This document shows positions 34,107 to 42,796 of a stretch of DNA of 51,548 bases, piece by piece. Source of the DNA: Phycisphaerae bacterium. GTDB lineage: Bacteria > Planctomycetota > Phycisphaerae > Sedimentisphaerales > Anaerohalosphaeraceae. The DNA is taken from positions 1 through 51,548 of the forward strand of contig JAGPMT010000020.1 in the NCBI GenBank assembly GCA_018052735.1. The letters run 5' to 3'. The notes under the pieces were generated by a model. The model was not told where the DNA came from and ran no database searches. It saw only the letters and a list, made by a program, of their open reading frames with translations. Every line of letters begins with the position of its first letter. Positions within the stretch are counted from its first letter, which is position 1. The position numbers and the translations under genes were made by a program.

Positions 34107-34527
34107 AACTCCTAAACAAAAACCAACCCTTCAGCCCTATGCCGCTAAGACACACAGCGAAAGTATTTTTCTTTGCGGTCGCGTATCCGCCGGATATGGG
34201 ATAGATGCCATTGAAGAAAAAGAACCTTTTTCGCTGGATGATGTGTTCGGCAGCCGCCAACAGTTATTTGTGCTTCGGGTTTGCGGCCAGAGCATGATTG
34301 GAGCCGGCATTCACGATGGGGATTATATCATTTGCCGAAGCGCCCAAACAGCTGAAAACGGCCAAATTGTCGTAGCTATGCTGGACGGACAGAATGCCAC
34401 CCTTAAACGCTTTTACAAGGACAGAAAAACTGCTCGCCTCCTGCCGGCCAATGACGCTTTTGAGCCGATTTATTCGGATTCGTGCCAAATTCAGGCTGTC
34501 GCTGTCGGGATTATCCGCCGGTTTTAA
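33853..34527 (+). CDS. lexA: LexA repressor (S24 family)
   Basis: SOS-response repressor with self-cleavage. The N-terminal winged helix (about 7-75) shows ITPRQ, TIGELAAALHISRTTAFEHV and LREKGLL. The cleavage site is Ala113-Gly114 (VSAGYG), the nucleophile Ser147 (CGQSMIGAGI) and general base Lys185 (ATLKRFY). Length 224 is normal. Self-cleavage is stimulated by RecA filaments; recA is encoded 20 kb away in the window. Its stop shares bases with the convergent DUF2617 stop. Confidence 0.93.
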   Translation: MSPHIPITPRQLHTLRQVKHLAQKQCYSATIGELAAALHISRTTAFEHVAALREKGLLEHSTGRARCLTLTPAGETLLERAQRPKTPKQKPTLQPYAAKTHSESIFLCGRVSAGYGIDAIEEKEPFSLDDVFGSRQQLFVLRVCGQSMIGAGIHDGDYIICRSAQTAENGQIVVAMLDGQNATLKRFYKDRKTARLLPANDAFEPIYSDSCQIQAVAVGIIRRF

Positions 34528-35069
34528 TGCAGGTCAAAAAGAGACTGGGTTTTAATAATCGTCACCTGATCGGGAAAAGCATGAAATGCATGGATATGCA
34601 GCTCGTCCCGACGGGCCTCAAAATCAATATAGGTAAACGGCTCCAGGCCGCCGACAGCCAATTCCGGGTGCGGGACAAAAATCCCCCGATTGCGGGCAAA
34701 CCGTTCAAGGTCATAATGACTCTGCCGATAGAGATTGGCACTCATCTTTTCAACTTGAAAATCGGTCATGTAGCTGAGCCCGCGGCTTAGTGTGCATTTG
34801 TGACTGCGCTGACCGCGAAACTGAAACCGCTCAATCAAACCCCGCTTGGGCAGACACTGATCCGGTGTGCATATCAGTTCTGTCAGGCAGGCATCTTTGG
34901 TTATCAGGGTTACCACGTGGGAGCCGCCTGTGGCCCAAATCAACGTCTCATAATTTTCTGTTTTTATGCGCCGCTGGGCATAAATCGTAAAAAGTTCCGG
35001 GTGAAGCGGGCGCTGAAAAAGGGAGAAGTTTAATTCGCTGACGGCTAAATGGCTTTTGGGTGTTTCCAT
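34524..35069 (-). CDS. DUF2617 family protein
   Basis: A 181-residue protein resembling DUF2617 members as I remember them: GGSHVVT (GASH.V), a TELIC segment (ET.AC), a KRGLIERFQFRG stretch, and a terminal HAFHAFPDQVTIIKTQS (WHAYP....V.T.S). Function is unknown for the family; the residue pattern suggests a compact beta-rich soluble fold. ATG 35069 chosen with GAGAG upstream; a GTG at 35081 would add four residues. Convergent with lexA, overlapping by 4 nt at the stop codons. Confidence 0.6.
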   Translation of the reverse strand: METPKSHLAVSELNFSLFQRPLHPELFTIYAQRRIKTENYETLIWATGGSHVVTLITKDACLTELICTPDQCLPKRGLIERFQFRGQRSHKCTLSRGLSYMTDFQVEKMSANLYRQSHYDLERFARNRGIFVPHPELAVGGLEPFTYIDFEARRDELHIHAFHAFPDQVTIIKTQSLFDLH

Positions 35070-35241
35070 TGGTTCTCTCACACATAGACATCATTGCTGT
35101 CGTATTACAGCTGTTATTATATGAAAATAGACTGTCTGAATCAAGGCCATTTTCAGTATTGATAGGCAAGTTTGTGCGGCTTATCGGACGGTGATTTTGC
35201 AAGTATAAGAAGTCAAAGACATTAGCAAATAAAAAAATTTT

Positions 35242-36093
35242 TTATGAATCGGGCTGAATCATAAAAATCAGTGTGCGGACTAGTGCCGCCAAAACATTGT
35301 AGAAAACATGTGTGCCGGCCGTTATGCCGAACCCCCGCACAGCATAAAGAACGGCAAAATAGACCCCCGCCATGGCCCGAAAGACAAATTTGCCAACGGT
35401 AAATGTATCGCCCTGATAAAAATGGCCGTTGGCAAAAAAGAAATGGTGATGCATGCTGAAAAGAACAGCAGAAATGGCCACCGACAGTATAATGGAAGGC
35501 GTTTTTTCCAATCCGAATATGTCCTGAAATACCAGCATCAGCAGGCAAATCAGTACCAGTCGGAAAATGAACTCTTCAAAAACACCGGCTCCGATGCCGG
35601 TGATCATATCCACCAGAATCTGGTTCTGTACAGGAGTCGGCAAAGCATTCACCGCAGCCCCGGCAGGCGGATTGCTGCGATTGAGCAGCAGACTTAGAAC
35701 AATCAGCGGAATCGACAGCAGAATGCATTCGCCGCCCATCAGCAGAAAATCCCCCCACTGAATCCGCCATGGAGCTTTCGAGGTTATCTGAAGTATCAGC
35801 AGAATAAATACCACCACCAGCGGCGTTGCAATCAGCGCCGTACGCGGCGGAAAGCCGAGATACTCCATAATGTTTTGAATCCAGACAAAAGCAACAACGC
35901 GCACCTGCGGCTCTGCCAGCGACTGCGAGAGCACAGCCGGCTGAATTAAAAATGTGCCGACCAGAAACAGACACAAAAAGCCCAGCAGATACACCAGCCC
36001 ATAAATCGGCCGGCTGGTTCGCTCCGCATACGAATTGGGAACGAATGCTACCAGCTGTCCGGATACTGCCCGGCGGTCATAATAACGTGCCAC
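35242..36093 (-). CDS. CPBP-family intramembrane metalloprotease
   Basis: A 283-residue polytopic membrane protein with about seven hydrophobic segments. The CPBP (CAAX protease/Abi) motifs are EExxxR as E173 E174 and R178, His215 in SMHHHF, and His262 in GTHVFYNVL. These are glutamate/histidine intramembrane proteases; bacterial substrates are mostly unknown. Start is a GTG at 36093 with AGGAG 5 bases upstream. Divergent from the DNA glycosylase gene across 100 bp. Confidence 0.85.
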   Translation of the reverse strand: MARYYDRRAVSGQLVAFVPNSYAERTSRPIYGLVYLLGFLCLFLVGTFLIQPAVLSQSLAEPQVRVVAFVWIQNIMEYLGFPPRTALIATPLVVVFILLILQITSKAPWRIQWGDFLLMGGECILLSIPLIVLSLLLNRSNPPAGAAVNALPTPVQNQILVDMITGIGAGVFEEFIFRLVLICLLMLVFQDIFGLEKTPSIILSVAISAVLFSMHHHFFFANGHFYQGDTFTVGKFVFRAMAGVYFAVLYAVRGFGITAGTHVFYNVLAALVRTLIFMIQPDS

Positions 36094-36193
36094 AAAAACT
36101 CCTGAATCTCTGCATTGATTTCAACTCCGCCATCAGTATAATCAAACTGGCCGAAAGTCAAATGGAAATTGGCGATAAAAAACAGGAACCGCA

Positions 36194-36862
36194 ATGGCAT
36201 ATACGAAGCTTCTGGATATTTATAACCGGCTTTACCAACGGTATGGTCCGCAGCACTGGTGGCCGGGACAAACGCCTTTTGAAATCATTGTCGGAGCGAT
36301 TTTAACCCAGAATACGAACTGGTCGAACGTCGAAAAAGCCATTGAAAATCTCAAAAAAGCCGGCTGTCTGACGCCCGAACAACTGCATCGGCTTCCGACA
36401 GAACAGCTGGCATCTTACATCAGACCCGCTGGATATTTCAATATAAAGGCAAGCCGTCTGAAGCATTTTTTAGACTGGCTGTTCGAAAAACACGATGGTT
36501 GTCTGGAAAAGCTGGCTGCAATGTCGCCGCTGACATTGCGCAAACAGCTTCTGGGCATTAAAGGCATCGGTCCGGAAACCGCCGATTCGATATGTCTTTA
36601 TGCATTTGGAAAACCAATTTTTGTCGTAGATGCCTATACTGCCCGTATGCTGGGACGACATCGGTTGATTGAAGACGGCAGCGGATATGATCAAATACAG
36701 GAACTGTTTCACAGCGGCCTTGAAAAAGATGTTTCACTTTTTAACGAGTTTCATGCCCTGATTGTCCGCCTTGGAAAGGAACACTGCAAAAAACAACCTG
36801 TCTGCAAGGGCTGTCCGCTGGAAGACCTGCCGCATCAAATCGAAATGGACCCTTATGATTAG
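36194..36862 (+). CDS. Endonuclease III-like HhH-GPD DNA glycosylase lacking the catalytic Lys
   Basis: A 222-residue HhH-GPD protein. The hairpin-helix-hairpin is LLGIKGIGPETADSI (119-133) and the catalytic Asp is D146 in VVDAYTARMLGR. Where endonuclease III has GRKTA, this has GPETA, so the AP-lyase lysine is replaced by Glu128. The iron-sulfur motif is incomplete: Cys198, Cys204 and Cys207 are present but the fourth Cys is not. This pattern resembles the MagIII-type 3-methyladenine glycosylases, so it is probably a monofunctional base-excision enzyme for alkylated bases rather than Nth. Its stop overlaps that of the convergent secretin-like gene. Confidence 0.8.
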   Translation: MAYTKLLDIYNRLYQRYGPQHWWPGQTPFEIIVGAILTQNTNWSNVEKAIENLKKAGCLTPEQLHRLPTEQLASYIRPAGYFNIKASRLKHFLDWLFEKHDGCLEKLAAMSPLTLRKQLLGIKGIGPETADSICLYAFGKPIFVVDAYTARMLGRHRLIEDGSGYDQIQELFHSGLEKDVSLFNEFHALIVRLGKEHCKKQPVCKGCPLEDLPHQIEMDPYD

Positions 36863-38652
36863 GGCTGGGGCTGTGCAGGTGCAGGCGCTTCCTCTTTAGG
36901 GGATTCCGGCGTCTGCTCATCGGGCGGTGTCGGCTGCTGGTCTGCAGGTTCGGCAGGGTTGGTCTGCTCTTCGGCTTGCTGAAGCTGTTGGCGTGCTTCC
37001 TGTGCCTGCTGTTCGGCTTGTGCGGCTTTTTGTCGGGCATCTTCCGCTTCCTGCTGCAGCCGCTGGGCTTCCTGAAGTGTTTCCTGAATTTGGGCATTCA
37101 GCTGGAGACGCTGCGCCTCCAGTTCTTCAACTTTCTGCATACTCGTCTGAATCTGGCTTCGGGTGTTTTGAGCTTGTTCTGCAGCGGCTTGCGCTTGGGC
37201 CTGCACTTCTTGGGCCTGCTGCTGGAGCTGTAATGCCTTTTGGCGGAGTATCTGCGTTTCCGCTTCCGCTCGGTCTGCACGCTCCTTTTCCGCCTTGGCA
37301 CGCTGCAGGGCCTGCTCCAAATCCACTTCGGCCTGAACACGCGCCATTTCTGCTTCGGTAGCTCTTTTTTCGGCTACCTTCAGATAGGCATCTGTGAAGG
37401 GACCGGCTACCGTGCCGGTCAGTCCCTTCTGGTACTGCGGCGCTGCATATTTCCGCCGGATATCCTCTACCACCTTGGTGTTATCCTGACCGCCGGAGGA
37501 AATGCTGGGGGTAAGAATAAAAATAATTTCTGTCCCTTTTTCTTCAAAATCCTTGCTGGAAAACAGAATGCCCAGAAGAGGCAAATCCTTAAAGAATGGA
37601 ATGCCGCGCACCACCGACCTTCGTTCACTCTTGCGCATCCCGCCGATAATTAAGCTTTTACCCGGCTCAATGCGGTTTTCCTCAACATTAATCGACCGCT
37701 CCGTAATAATCGGCGACTGAACAACCCCTTCGGGTTTGGACCGCGAACCTATTTTGATATCCGTTTTCAGGCCAATCGAACCGTCCGAATAAACATAGGG
37801 CGTTACGCTTAAGGTATTTTCCACCCACACATACTTGGTGATGTTATAAACACCGCTGGCGCCGGCAGCACCGGTCCGGACTTCTTCTATCGGAGAATAA
37901 TCCTTTATTGTAACTGTTGCCGGCTGGCCGTTGACGGTTTCCAGCTGCGGATTCAAAAGAATCTTCAGATAGCCCCGTGAAATCAGCACATCCACAATCG
38001 CCCGCACCTGATGGCCGTCAATGCCCTTGTTTCGCCAATACCCGAAATCCAATCCGAAATTGGCTCGCTTTTTCTCTCGCAGCGAAGCACCCGGAAAAAC
38101 CGGTTTGGGATATTTTGATTCACCCAGCGTAATCTGCTCCCCCATCAGATTTTCTATCAGAAGAGTGGTTTCCCAATCCGTTGTAACATCCCCGAACCGC
38201 TCCAGAATCAGACAATCCACATTGACTTGCACAGGAGCAACATCAATCAGCTCCAAGTATTGCTGGACTGCATCGGCTTGTGCCTGATCCTTGCAGTAGG
38301 CCACAATCTGATTGGTACTGGCATTCACCGTCGATGACACATCCAGCTGCTGCTGCAGCAGGGCTGCCAGATTGCCGGCCGGATGGTGCTTGGTAAAATA
38401 GAACAGCTTGACGCCGTCCTTGATGGCCAGCCGCGAAGGCGGCTGACGATAAACCTCCGGGGGCAGATTGTCGGTCTGTACATTTTCGCGAACGGCGCTG
38501 AGCTCACGCAGGGTTTCTATGGACTCGGCTTCCGTCGGCTTTTGGGCAAAAAAATCCCCGCACCCGCCGAGCATTCCGGCTATGGCATACAGGCAAATGG
38601 CCTTTATCCAAATTATACGGTTATTGACTTTGAGCACCTTGAACACCTTCAT
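36859..38652 (-). CDS. Secretin-like lipoprotein with C-terminal coiled coil (paralogue B)
   Basis: A 597-residue lipoprotein: signal peptide with lipobox ending at Cys31 (GMLGGCGD). An N1-like segment (about 95-135) is followed by VDCLILERFGDVT and the secretin core, ending in KSLIIGGMRKSE, GIPFFKDLPLLGILF and TEIIFILTPSI (about 335-390), the GspD/PilQ-type signature. The last 180 residues are Ala/Gln/Glu-rich heptad coiled coil (about 415-560), then a Pro-rich acidic tail. Secretins form outer-membrane channels; a long coiled coil after the secretin domain is not the usual layout. The ATG at 38652 overlaps the upstream gene by 32 nt and no Shine-Dalgarno is visible, implying coupled translation. 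Confidence 0.75.
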   Translation of the reverse strand: MKVFKVLKVNNRIIWIKAICLYAIAGMLGGCGDFFAQKPTEAESIETLRELSAVRENVQTDNLPPEVYRQPPSRLAIKDGVKLFYFTKHHPAGNLAALLQQQLDVSSTVNASTNQIVAYCKDQAQADAVQQYLELIDVAPVQVNVDCLILERFGDVTTDWETTLLIENLMGEQITLGESKYPKPVFPGASLREKKRANFGLDFGYWRNKGIDGHQVRAIVDVLISRGYLKILLNPQLETVNGQPATVTIKDYSPIEEVRTGAAGASGVYNITKYVWVENTLSVTPYVYSDGSIGLKTDIKIGSRSKPEGVVQSPIITERSINVEENRIEPGKSLIIGGMRKSERRSVVRGIPFFKDLPLLGILFSSKDFEEKGTEIIFILTPSISSGGQDNTKVVEDIRRKYAAPQYQKGLTGTVAGPFTDAYLKVAEKRATEAEMARVQAEVDLEQALQRAKAEKERADRAEAETQILRQKALQLQQQAQEVQAQAQAAAEQAQNTRSQIQTSMQKVEELEAQRLQLNAQIQETLQEAQRLQQEAEDARQKAAQAEQQAQEARQQLQQAEEQTNPAEPADQQPTPPDEQTPESPKEEAPAPAQPQP

Positions 38653-40465
38653 TGGGAACTGACGGCTGCGGTTCTGCCGCCGGCGATTCTGTTTCCGGCA
38701 AGCCGGCCTCTGAAGATGGCGGGACTTCGGCAGCGTTCTGCCGTTCCAGTTCATCCAGCTGCTGCTGAATGCGCTGGGCTTCTTCGTGGGCTTTCTGGGC
38801 TTCCTGTGAGAACTGCTGAACTTTCAGGCGTATCTGTTCCAGCGCCGCCTGAGCTTCCTGCGCTGCCTGACGCGCACGCTGGGCCTCGGCCTGGACCTGC
38901 TCGACTGCCGCCTGCGTCTCTGTCAGCCGGCTCTGCTGGGCAGCGGCTTCTTTAAGGGCCGCTTCCTGTTCGGCCTCCGCAGCTGCCTTCTGCGCCTTGG
39001 CATGCTCTATCTGGGCAGCGGATTCCTTGGCCACGCTTTCCATTTCCCGGGCAAGAGCCGCTGCCTTTTGTGCCTGCAGCCGGGCGGCCTGTGCCTGCCG
39101 CTCGGCACGTGCGGTTTGAACCTGAAGCCGAATCATCTCCGACTCGGCCTGTTCGGCCTGCTGCTCAAGAACCTGTGAGTAGGCCGTGGTCCCCAGCGGA
39201 TCGGTTACAATCGCATCAAAATCAGAGCCGTAATCCGGCGTTTGAAACTTCTGACGAACCATATCCGCCATTTCCTTGTATTCCGTGCCGCCGGAAGAGA
39301 TGGTAGGCGTTAAAATAAAAATGACCTCTGTGGCATTTTCTTCAAAATCCTTGCTGGAAAAAAGTATCCCGATAATTGGTATATCCTTCAAAAACGGCAC
39401 ACCCCGTACAACAGAGCGGTTTTCGCTTTTGCGCATCCCGCCAATAATCAGCGATTTGCCCGGCTGGATTCGATTCTCGGCAACCTGAACCGACCGTTCG
39501 GTGATAATCGGCGCCTGCACAACCCCTTCCGGCTTGGACTTGGAACCGAAGGTAATATCGGTCTTCAATCCAATAGAACCATCCGCATAAACATACGGCG
39601 TTACGGACAAGGTATCCGCCACCCATCGATAATCGGTCACCGAATAAGGGGCTCTGCCGCCTTCGGTAACCGTCAATTCGATAGGAGCATTGTCGCGAAT
39701 CTGCACCTGAGCCGTTTTGCCATTGACTGTCTCAATGGTCGGGTTCATCAAAATTTTCAGGTAGCCGCGCGATTCAAGCACATCCACCAGCAGGCGAACC
39801 TGATGTCCCGGCACGCCTTCGTTTTTCCAGTAGCCGAAATCCAATCCAAATGTGGACCGTTTCGCTTCCCGCAGCGAGGCCCCCGGAAAAGCCGGCTTGG
39901 GATACTTATCCGCTCCCAGTGTAATTCCCTCGCCCAGCAGATTTTCAATCAGCAGCGTCGTCTCCCAGTCTTTTGTAACATCACCGAACCGCTCCAGAAT
40001 CAGGCAGTCAATATGCACCTGTATCGGCGGCACATCGGTCTTTTCCAAATATGCCAGTACTTGGTCGCATTCTTCATCTGTCGCACAATGCACAATCAGC
40101 TGATTGGTTACCGGATTCGTACTGACCTTAAAGCCCAAATCCCGGATGGTGCCGCCGTATCCGTGAACCTGTTTGACGCGGGCAGGGTCTTTATCTGAAA
40201 AAGTCAAATCACCCACCGGCTGGTATTTTGTAAAGTAAAACAGCTTCACCCCGTCTTCCACTTTGAGCCGTTTGGGACCTTCCCGATAGACCTGAGGCAA
40301 GGGATTGCCGATATGGGGATTTTCCCGTACCCGCGCTATATCCCGTATGACCGCTTTGGATTCCAACTCGGTGGGCTTTTCAGCAAAAAAATCCCCGCAG
40401 CCGGCCAAAACAATAGCCAGCCCGAGAAGGAAAAAGCAAATTTTTAAACGGGACATTCCGGACAT
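38621..40465 (-). CDS. Secretin-like lipoprotein with C-terminal coiled coil (paralogue A)
   Basis: A 614-residue paralogue of the following gene with the same order: lipobox Cys23 (VLAGCGD), FFAEKPTE motif, N1-like region (residues about 105-145), HIDCLILERFGDVT, secretin core with SLIIGGMRKSE, GVPFLKDIPIIGILF and TEVIFILTPTI (about 365-420), then an Ala/Gln/Glu coiled coil (about 450-590) and a Pro/Glu tail. The cores are very similar while the coiled coils differ, so the tail evolves faster. No ATPase, pseudopilin or inner-membrane partner gene is nearby. The 292 bp upstream to rimO hold no gene; I could not place a promoter with confidence. Confidence 0.78.
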   Translation of the reverse strand: MSGMSRLKICFFLLGLAIVLAGCGDFFAEKPTELESKAVIRDIARVRENPHIGNPLPQVYREGPKRLKVEDGVKLFYFTKYQPVGDLTFSDKDPARVKQVHGYGGTIRDLGFKVSTNPVTNQLIVHCATDEECDQVLAYLEKTDVPPIQVHIDCLILERFGDVTKDWETTLLIENLLGEGITLGADKYPKPAFPGASLREAKRSTFGLDFGYWKNEGVPGHQVRLLVDVLESRGYLKILMNPTIETVNGKTAQVQIRDNAPIELTVTEGGRAPYSVTDYRWVADTLSVTPYVYADGSIGLKTDITFGSKSKPEGVVQAPIITERSVQVAENRIQPGKSLIIGGMRKSENRSVVRGVPFLKDIPIIGILFSSKDFEENATEVIFILTPTISSGGTEYKEMADMVRQKFQTPDYGSDFDAIVTDPLGTTAYSQVLEQQAEQAESEMIRLQVQTARAERQAQAARLQAQKAAALAREMESVAKESAAQIEHAKAQKAAAEAEQEAALKEAAAQQSRLTETQAAVEQVQAEAQRARQAAQEAQAALEQIRLKVQQFSQEAQKAHEEAQRIQQQLDELERQNAAEVPPSSEAGLPETESPAAEPQPSVPNEGVQGAQSQ

Positions 40466-40757
40466 TAATCAATCCAAAAACATAATAAACACCCTTTTTT
40501 CATCCGCCCCTTCATCAGGTACGCTTTTCAATATTGTTTCTTCGGCTCATGAAACGTTTTTTCTAAAATCAAACAGCAGTGAAAATACAGATAACCAATC
40601 TTTTTGCCCCTGGTATCTATAATCATCCTTTTTATTGCCTAAAACGAATGATTCGGGCAGTCTATTGCAGACCAACAGGCAAATTTCTCCACACAATGCG
40701 TCGTGTTTTATAAAGTGATGGATTTTTGAGTCCGTTTATGTTATTTTTCTTTGTCTA

Positions 40758-42107
40758 ATGGTCCAAAAAAATAAAAAATCTATTTCCGTGGCTTTTGTCG
40801 CTCTGGGGTGTCCCAAAAACATGGTCGACAGCGAGGTTATGCTCGCCCAGATTGGACAGGCCGGCTTTGTGCTTAGTTCTGATACGGATGCCTCCGATGT
40901 GGTCGTTATCAATACCTGCGGTTTTATTGAGCCGGCCAAACAGGAAGCGCTGGAGGCCATCCGGCATGCCGTGCGGCAAAAGAAAAAAGGCCGGATTCGC
41001 AAAGTCATTGTGGCCGGCTGCCTTTCTGAGCGTATGGGGCAGGCGCTGGCCGACGAAGTCAACGGCATCGATGCTGTTGTCGGTCTTTCGCAGCGGGACC
41101 AAATCGCCTCAATCATTCAAAACTGCTTTAGTCCTAAACATTCTCCGGCCACAAAACTTTTTATTGAGCCGTCTGGCAGCGGGATTCACGATGACCGGGG
41201 ACGCCTGCTGATAACTCCGGGACATTGGGCGTATCTGCGCATCAGTGAAGGATGCAGCCGAAAATGCTCCTTCTGTACTATTCCCTCGATTCGCGGAAAA
41301 TTTCGCAGTAAACCCATGGAAATGATCCTCGATGAGGCCCGTGAACTGGTTTCCAGCGGTGCTGTGGAACTGAGCATTATCGCACAGGACAGCAGTTTCT
41401 ATGGTCGGGATATTGGACTTAAAAACGGATTAATACAGCTGATTGGCCGGCTTGAAACAATCGAGCCCCTTCAATGGCTGCGGCTGATGTATCTCTATCC
41501 GGCAGCTGTGGATGATACTCTGATTGAAGCCGTTGCTGAAAGCAGGAAAGTGGTCCGCTACATCGATATGCCGATTCAGCATATCAGCAATCCCATCCTT
41601 TCTTCCATGCGTCGAGCCGATACCAAAGAACACACTATAGAGCTGGTGGAAAAACTGCGAAAGGCAATGCCGGATATTGTGCTGCGAACCACCGTTATCG
41701 TCGGCTATCCCGGTGAAACCGAGGCCCAATTCGAAGAACTGCTGGATTTTATCCGGTGGGCTGGATTTGATGCGCTGGGCTGTTTTCCCTTTTATCCTGA
41801 GGCAGGAACCCCTGCTGCGGATCTGCCCGGTCAGCTGCCGGATGCCGTCAAACAGGAGCGTCTGGATACCCTGATGCAAACCCAGCAAGAGCTTGTATTT
41901 AGAAAAATGGACGCCCAGCTCGGACGCCCGCTGACCGTTTTGGTTGATGAGGCCTTCGACAATCAAGCGGTCGGACGCTTTTACGGCCAAGCCCCCCACA
42001 TTGACAGCTTCTGCAAAATCCAGAATGCCGCCGTCGAACCGGGGCAATTCATCCAAACCCGCGTTATCGGCCGTGACGGTTATGATTTTATTGTCCACCC
42101 GCTATAG
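40758..42107 (+). CDS. rimO: Ribosomal protein uS12 methylthiotransferase
   Basis: A radical SAM enzyme adding a methylthio group to an Asp of ribosomal protein uS12. The N-terminal MTTase domain has Cys18 (ALGCPKN), Cys54 (NTCGFIE) and Cys88 (AGCLSE) for the auxiliary cluster. The radical SAM motif is C166xxxC170xxC173 (GCSRKCSFC). A C-terminal TRAM-like domain follows (about 375-449). ALGCPKNMVDSE separates RimO from MiaB. Length 449 is typical. Precedes pgsA by 65 bp. Confidence 0.95.
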   Translation: MVQKNKKSISVAFVALGCPKNMVDSEVMLAQIGQAGFVLSSDTDASDVVVINTCGFIEPAKQEALEAIRHAVRQKKKGRIRKVIVAGCLSERMGQALADEVNGIDAVVGLSQRDQIASIIQNCFSPKHSPATKLFIEPSGSGIHDDRGRLLITPGHWAYLRISEGCSRKCSFCTIPSIRGKFRSKPMEMILDEARELVSSGAVELSIIAQDSSFYGRDIGLKNGLIQLIGRLETIEPLQWLRLMYLYPAAVDDTLIEAVAESRKVVRYIDMPIQHISNPILSSMRRADTKEHTIELVEKLRKAMPDIVLRTTVIVGYPGETEAQFEELLDFIRWAGFDALGCFPFYPEAGTPAADLPGQLPDAVKQERLDTLMQTQQELVFRKMDAQLGRPLTVLVDEAFDNQAVGRFYGQAPHIDSFCKIQNAAVEPGQFIQTRVIGRDGYDFIVHPL

Positions 42108-42172
42108 TTTGGCTTCTTGAGCTTTGGATTTACCCTTGCTCTGACAGTGCAATACCGCTATAATTCCGCCCG

Positions 42173-42796
42173 ATGAAGGAAAAACAGAAAAAAGGATTGA
42201 TTCGTTATATTCCCAACGCACTGACGGTTGGACGGCTGGTTCTGACGGTGGTATTTCTGGGGCTGATTGTCTATGCGCCAAAGACCAGTCAGCCCAAACC
42301 GGCCGGCCTGCTGATGGGGGCGTTTGTCCTGTTTGTCATCACAGGCCTGACAGATATTATCGACGGATATCTGGCGCGCCGATTTGAGGTAACCAGCCGT
42401 TTTGGACGGGTGGTGGACCCGTTAGCTGACAAATTTCTTGTCTGCGGGGCATTCTTTTGCTTTGCTTGGGTCAATCAGCCCCTGATGGCCGGCTTGGGCC
42501 TTTCAGAATGGACTCTCGACTTTATCCGCTGGGGGACAGCCGTTGTTATTTTTGCCCGGGAGGTTGTTGTTCAAACACTGCGTCATATCGCCGAAAGCCG
42601 CGGCGTGCAGTTCGGAGCTATCTGGTCGGGCAAACTGAAGATGTTTCTTCAGTCCTTCGGAATCGGGACTGTTTTAATCGGCTGGGCGTATGTCTCCCGC
42701 CCATGGGGCGATTGGTTTACCATAATCACCTATGTTCTGATGGTGCTTGTTACAATCCTGTCGGGTATTCAGTCCCTAACCCGACGGATTAAATAG
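42173..42796 (+). CDS. pgsA: CDP-diacylglycerol--glycerol-3-phosphate 3-phosphatidyltransferase
   Basis: Makes phosphatidylglycerol-phosphate, committing lipid to phosphatidylglycerol. The CDP-alcohol phosphotransferase motif is complete: D61..D64G..AR........G...D82...D86 (TDIIDGYLARR to GRVVDPLAD). Several hydrophobic helices span the 207 residues, and NALTVGR near the start is typical of PgsA. It lies between rimO and ettA, 29 bp before the latter, likely one unit; the rimO-pgsA neighbourhood is common. Confidence 0.92.
   Translation: MKEKQKKGLIRYIPNALTVGRLVLTVVFLGLIVYAPKTSQPKPAGLLMGAFVLFVITGLTDIIDGYLARRFEVTSRFGRVVDPLADKFLVCGAFFCFAWVNQPLMAGLGLSEWTLDFIRWGTAVVIFAREVVVQTLRHIAESRGVQFGAIWSGKLKMFLQSFGIGTVLIGWAYVSRPWGDWFTIITYVLMVLVTILSGIQSLTRRIK

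Follow-up and report, generated by a model that had tools for sequence, protein, structure and literature searches.

A conserved secretin variant of the Sedimentisphaerales with a lipobox, a single N domain and a C-terminal coiled coil

Introduction

Secretins form outer-membrane rings of 12-17 subunits, and the best known among them provide the outer-membrane terminus of large machines for secretion or pili, where separate pilotins and scaffolds put them in place. The S-domain at the C-terminus of such proteins sits on the periplasmic side of the secretin barrel. In solved secretins, this S-domain is the chain that follows the secretin domain, and it is here that pilotins bind (PMC6532946). 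The N0 domain, in turn, docks the inner-membrane and scaffold proteins of the type II secretion system (T2SS), as when the HR of OutB binds the N0 of OutD, and the example of OutB/GspB demonstrates that anchoring a secretin to the inner membrane and peptidoglycan can require a separate protein (PMC9239104). A different solution is found in BfpB, a lipoprotein secretin that is lipidated at Cys18 and does not need a pilotin, and whose N-terminal helix occupies the place taken by the C-terminal S-domain of other secretins (PMC12114550).

Here we examine two neighbouring genes, S1 and S2, in a 51,548-nucleotide stretch of a Phycisphaerae genome of the order Sedimentisphaerales (contig JAGPMT010000020.1; hereafter the window). 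The original prediction for this locus described a pair of orphan secretin lipoproteins with reduced N-terminal domains and C-terminal coiled coils, which could build a hetero-oligomeric pore.

Results

S1 and S2 are adjacent paralogous open reading frames (ORFs) on the minus strand with about 50% sequence identity (Table 1). Because the signal peptide of S2, MKVFKVLKVNNRIIWIKAICLYAIAGMLGGC, begins at the ATG at 38652, we set the start of the gene there and not at 38754, where the mechanically called ORF begins; with this corrected start, the 5' end of S2 overlaps the S1 stop by 32 nt. A promoter and terminator scan that included the intergenic region upstream of S1 returned matches near the level of shuffled sequence.

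Table 1. Features of the S1-S2 locus, with positions in the window (AF2, AlphaFold2).
Feature	Position	Strand	Basis
S1, secretin lipoprotein, 614 aa	38621..40465	-	ORF; PF00263 E 8.6e-30; AF2 model
S1 signal peptide and lipobox, residues 1-23, VLAGC23	40397..40465	-	Sequence; Cys column 91% conserved
S1 conserved N-terminal helix behind the lipobox Cys, residues 32-44	40334..40372	-	AF2; motif KPTExES..ILREL
S1 single KH-like N domain, residues 65-147	40025..40273	-	AF2; VIA Z 7.9, rmsd 1.5, XcpQ N domain
S1 secretin domain, residues 230-389	39299..39778	-	PF00263; Foldseek E 2e-15 to GspD 5w68
S1 C-terminal coiled coil, residues 427-577, 151 aa	38735..39187	-	AF2 single helix; 3.5-residue periodicity
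S2, secretin lipoprotein, 597 aa	36859..38652	-	PF00263 E 2.9e-27; AF2 model
S2 signal peptide and lipobox, residues 1-31, MLGGC31	38560..38652	-	Sequence
S2 single KH-like N domain, residues 73-141	38230..38436	-	AF2 pLDDT ~90; VIA Z 9.0, XcpQ N domains
S2 secretin domain, residues 223-384	37501..37986	-	PF00263; VIA Z 13.3 to GspD 5wq9
S2 C-terminal coiled coil, residues 421-561, 141 aa	36970..37392	-	AF2 single helix; 3.5-residue periodicity
Divergent intergenic region, 292 bp, S1 to rimO-like gene	40466..40757	.	ORF positions
rimO-like and pgsA-like genes, conserved divergent neighbours	40758..42796	+	Pfam; locus comparison
HhH-GPD base-excision repair gene (+), Rce1-like CAAX protease (-), DUF2617 (-); conserved downstream neighbours	34524..36862	.	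Pfam; locus comparison

In sequence and predicted fold, both proteins are secretins. Against the PF00263 profile S1 scores 104 bits and S2 95.8 bits (curated cut-off, 27.5), and the two are among the nine secretins detected above cut-off in a scan of their own genome. Structure prediction, proposed as a check on the secretin assignment, was run on each protein and gave models of moderate confidence (mean pLDDT 63 for S1 and 69 for S2) in which the parts follow in identical order: signal peptide and lipobox Cys, a short helix, a KH-like N domain, the secretin beta sheet, a short S-like helix (residues 396-406 in S1 and 391-402 in S2), a long helix and a tail. A secretin fold preceded by a KH-like N domain is therefore predicted for both. 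The best structural matches identified by VIA were to GspD (Z ~13 for both models), and Foldseek matched GspD and InvG at E ~2e-15, with filamentous phage pIV giving the highest TM of its list (0.62 on target). By sequence, the solved relatives are pIV, which is the top phmmer match, PilQ and GspD. Scores against the profiles of named secretin families fall far below their cut-offs, however, with 81.5 (S1) and 99.8 bits (S2) against 351 for the GspD equivalog TIGR02517, 66-83 bits against 284 for PilQ, and 64-65 bits against 250 for MshL. Within the protein, conservation across relatives is highest in the secretin domain.

Ahead of this domain, the lipobox and the reduced N-terminal region that had been noticed in both sequences were borne out. 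The lipobox Cys column is conserved in 91% of 64 relatives (the single-copy member L110 lacks the lipobox), and the +2 residue is Gly, not Asp, in both S1 and S2. The helix that follows the Cys has its S2 counterpart at residues 40-52. Each protein then has one KH-like N domain, superposing on the N domains of XcpQ with an rmsd of 1.5-1.9 (VIA). The N0 profile PF21305 gave no match in S1 or S2, and the models have no room for such a domain before residue 65; the same profile found N0 in four other secretins of this genome. A T2SS-T3SS_pil_N domain is likewise absent from S1 and S2, and present in the CpaC of the same genome.

These features relate S1 and S2 to several described systems without matching any one of them. 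With GspD, XcpQ and PulD they share the secretin domain and the KH-like N domain, but in GspD the N domains run from N0 to N3, and a short S-domain binds the pilotin. As in the liposecretins BfpB and HxcQ, a lipobox Cys is followed by a helix near the barrel and no pilotin would be expected, and both models match BfpB (9u5s; VIA Z 9.4-9.8) in an alignment that starts within the N-terminal region. BfpB, however, has an N0 domain, belongs to a pilus operon and carries no long coil, whereas S1 and S2 have neither N0 nor operon and end in a coil of 141-151 residues.

This coil is predicted as a single helix (pLDDT ~73-87) and is followed in both proteins by a disordered Pro-rich tail of 36-37 residues; in all, 225 (S1) and 213 (S2) residues lie past the secretin domain. 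Its 3.5-residue heptad periodicity was matched by 1 of 2000 composition-preserving shuffles for S1 and by 0 of 2000 for S2, and the spectrum averaged over 45 family members peaks near 3.5. The coil first described as 140-180 residues long is thus present at 140-150 residues; the upper length had counted in part of the tail. If straight, it would measure about 20-22 nm (141-151 residues at 0.15 nm per residue). The arrangement is as unusual for a secretin as had been supposed: the other seven secretins of the genome have tails of 28-105 residues, none with such a coil, and a comparable coil was found in none of the 36 other secretins of the class that we examined (these seven and 29 more). It is not universal within the family, however, since two members have lost it nearly or wholly (L106:4289-5734 and L116:7266-8693), and these could be used as natural controls. 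At the other extreme, the 951-residue member L053:7891-10746 has a coil of about 300 residues within a 464-residue tail, which finishes with a strong transmembrane segment, VIVAPTVMLIIGIVLGVCW; the C-terminal end of L054, a close relative, is different. The transmembrane end of L053, a single case, would fit a coil that terminates in the inner membrane.

The claim that no T2SS or type IV pilus (T4P) gene is adjacent holds for the larger ORFs of the window, as we found no secretion, pilus or phage gene among the 20 that were scanned, and no gsp or pil genes; the neighbours of relatives are housekeeping genes as well. Elsewhere in the genome, a Tad locus includes a CpaC, one T2SS locus includes GspD, GspE and GspF, a second locus has GspF and GspD, and two PilM loci have secretins of their own; two further secretins have no clear system. 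Judged by gene location, other loci thus do use other secretins, which marks the pair as orphans and does not overturn the original prediction. Other genes were also seen in this survey. One of them, L061:2-1273 on contig C12, which is truncated at its start by the edge of the contig, encodes another orphan secretin of this genome and has a PknB-like Ser/Thr kinase gene nearby. L055:3008-5110 encodes a secretin that resembles GspD and has N0 and Secretin_N domains; no other gsp genes are in view on its 6-kb contig. L059:15702-17417, in a PilM locus, encodes an ATPase of the PilB/GspE type whose N-terminal domain is of the MshE-like, cyclic-di-GMP-binding kind.

The suggested search for this architecture across Planctomycetota, carried out with a profile of the N-terminal 200 residues (cut-off E 1e-8) on sampled sets of genomes, showed the family to be conserved. 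It is present in 60 of 88 Sedimentisphaerales genomes, and when 298 genomes sampled from the class and 392 from the phylum were searched, all matches lay within this order; some of the relatives with named records are Sedimentisphaerales MAGs. Two adjacent copies occur in 21 of the 60 family-bearing genomes, and many members are single-copy. A plasmid search returned distant secretins only, none of them spanning 80% of the query, and a search of the open-access literature found no paper on such a secretin family. We conclude that this is a real, conserved secretin variant with a new domain arrangement, restricted to one order among the genomes sampled.

The genes also keep their place. The site is bounded on one side by the divergent rimO-like and pgsA-like genes, which are next to a family member at 22 (rimO-like) and 13 (pgsA-like) of the compared loci, and on the other by the HhH-GPD, CAAX-protease and DUF2617 genes. 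Part of one family differs in that the gene is found near rpsB-tsf-pyrH-frr, which are not envelope genes. No conserved partner gene was found, as the neighbours are housekeeping genes that differ between families, and the rimO-like and pgsA-like genes are conserved neighbours, not functional partners. This conserved genomic position points to vertical inheritance and away from a mobile or phage origin. Although S1 and S2 resemble the pIV of filamentous phages in being short secretins, they differ from it in their lipobox, their C-terminal coil and their vertical synteny with housekeeping genes; this chromosomal synteny, together with the lack of phage genes in the scanned ORFs, speaks against their being part of a phage or prophage.

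Both genes, their coils included, are under strong purifying selection as judged from substitution rates. Between the window and L035, for which dS is near saturation, dN/dS is 0.056 (S1) and 0.060 (S2) in the core and 0.10 (S1) and 0.11 (S2) in the coil, and for the closer pair L117/L119 it is 0.08 for the core of both genes and 0.06 (S1) and 0.12 (S2) for the coil. The Pro-rich tail is less constrained than the coil. High expression, as of an abundant structural protein, is unsupported: the codon bias of S1 and S2 lies near the middle of their genomes, with percentiles of 0.35-0.71 in G010 and G021, and of 0.76-0.94 in the window genome, for which the reference set is poor.

In a tree of the core, the S1 and S2 copies of the window and its relatives form two clades, those of L048, L049, L052, L063 and L067 form a further S1 clade and a further S2 clade, and in L047, L050 and L051 each copy groups with its own partner. 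Since a constraint that places all second copies in one clade is rejected (p-AU 1.7e-43), the tandem pairs do not all go back to a single duplication. Either they appear to have arisen more than once, or gene conversion may have homogenised some lineages; in the window's clade, gene conversion is disfavoured because the copies are about 50% identical. In four of the five second copies of the further S2 clade (L048, L049, L052 and L067), the lipobox Cys before the conserved motif has been lost, while their S1 partners retain it; the S2 of L063 retains the Cys as well.

Discussion

We tentatively propose, at somewhat less than even confidence, that S1 and S2 are subunits of self-piloting outer-membrane secretin channels that act apart from the T2SS, T4P and Tad machines. 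A lipid on the N-terminal Cys, along with the conserved helix behind it, would take the monomers to the outer membrane and so replace a separate pilotin; BfpB is the nearest precedent for this N-terminal part. The single N domain and the secretin domain would then form a short ring with a gated, double-walled barrel, serving as a conduit or anchored pore, and helices of 140-150 residues would emerge on the periplasmic side of this barrel, where they would pair as coiled coils in a stalk or skirt. The stalk would brace the pore on the peptidoglycan or inner membrane, which elsewhere is the job of scaffolds such as GspB; we suggest this as an analogy, GspB/OutB being, unlike the S1/S2 coil, a separate protein that binds N0.

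In genomes with two copies, S1 and S2 would most likely co-assemble. Such a hetero-oligomer, as first envisaged, is plausible on indirect grounds: a single duplication does not account for the pairs, their genes overlap translationally, both copies are strongly constrained and, in one clade, the lipobox loss affects S2 and not S1. Loss of the Cys from S2 alone would be expected of a subunit that shares its ring with lipidated S1, but does not prove such a ring, since the single-copy L110 also lacks the Cys; nor would a mixed ring be obligatory, given that many members are single-copy. It is quite possible that S1 and S2 instead form separate homo-oligomers, retained for dosage or for separate cargo, as their identity of only about 50%, the single copies of many genomes and the loosely matched lengths of S1 and S2 coils within genomes would all allow. 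Against this stand the translational overlap, the one-sided loss of the lipobox and the repeated retention of tandem pairs. The most complete form of the channel model, in which S1 and S2 share a ring, only part of the subunits carry lipid, and this ring works with no T2SS, T4P or Tad platform and sends its coils across the periplasm to the wall or inner membrane, is a doubtful but possible one.

Alternatively, a T2SS or type IV pilus whose inner-membrane platform is encoded elsewhere in the genome might use S1 and S2 as its dispersed secretin. The genome does contain GspE, GspF and PilM proteins, PilM-type platforms occur in all 88 genomes of the order that were searched, and S1 and S2 score best against GspD among the NCBIfam secretins. 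The joint presence of PilM and a TolC-type OEP in 88 of 88 genomes is, however, non-discriminating, and the 28 genomes that have PilM but not the family argue that PilM machines can do without it. Nor is a link to Tad supported, as CpaB occurs in 10 of the 88 genomes and the family in 60; the family thus does not follow the distribution of Tad genes, as would be expected of a Tad secretin of the RcpA/CpaC type. With every T2SS, PilM and Tad locus that we saw carrying a secretin of its own, and with the N0 docking domain missing from S1 and S2, we consider the dispersed arrangement rather unlikely.

A role as structural tether from the outer membrane to the peptidoglycan or inner membrane, with the ring acting mainly as an anchor and the coil doing the work in the manner of Lpp or SlpA, appears improbable. 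The long Ala-rich coil is in keeping with it, as are the transmembrane end of L053 and, for S2, a weak match to the alanine zipper of Lpp (E 0.034; E 0.0014 to NF040598). Yet a Pfam scan found no known peptidoglycan-binding domain in S1 or S2, it is the secretin domain itself that is best conserved, and codon usage bears no sign of an abundant structural protein.

Because the S-domain lies on the periplasmic side of the secretin barrel, we place the coils of the proposed channel in the periplasm; of the two locations initially allowed for them, this is the probable one, and the outside of the cell is unlikely. That they should point outward as a surface fibre or adhesin is very improbable, since the general likeness of long coiled coils with Pro-rich ends to stalks is outweighed by the chain after the secretin domain being the S-domain that pilotins bind (PMC6532946), and by the transmembrane end of one relative, which better fits the inner membrane.

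If the channel model is true, secretins with a lipid anchor and coil of their own, encoded standalone and in pairs of multiple origin, can act as independent or mixed envelope pores, which bears on the poorly understood organisation of the planctomycete outer membrane. With single-copy and paired versions both available in sister families, the idea of a mixed ring is open to direct test.

A different group of secretins, seen in Phycisphaerae outside the window's order, may be a stronger lead than the S1/S2 family. These are giant secretins with intact frames of up to 6,165 residues, on which a literature search found no paper. L174:441-18938 (minus strand) encodes about 62 Secretin_N domains, an N0 and a C-terminal secretin domain, and L175:1308-16529 (plus strand) a protein of 5,073 residues with about 40 Secretin_N domains; others occur in G042, G068, G073, G041, G081, G087 and G049. 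If each N domain forms a ring, we estimate that such a protein would build a tube of about 100 nm or longer.
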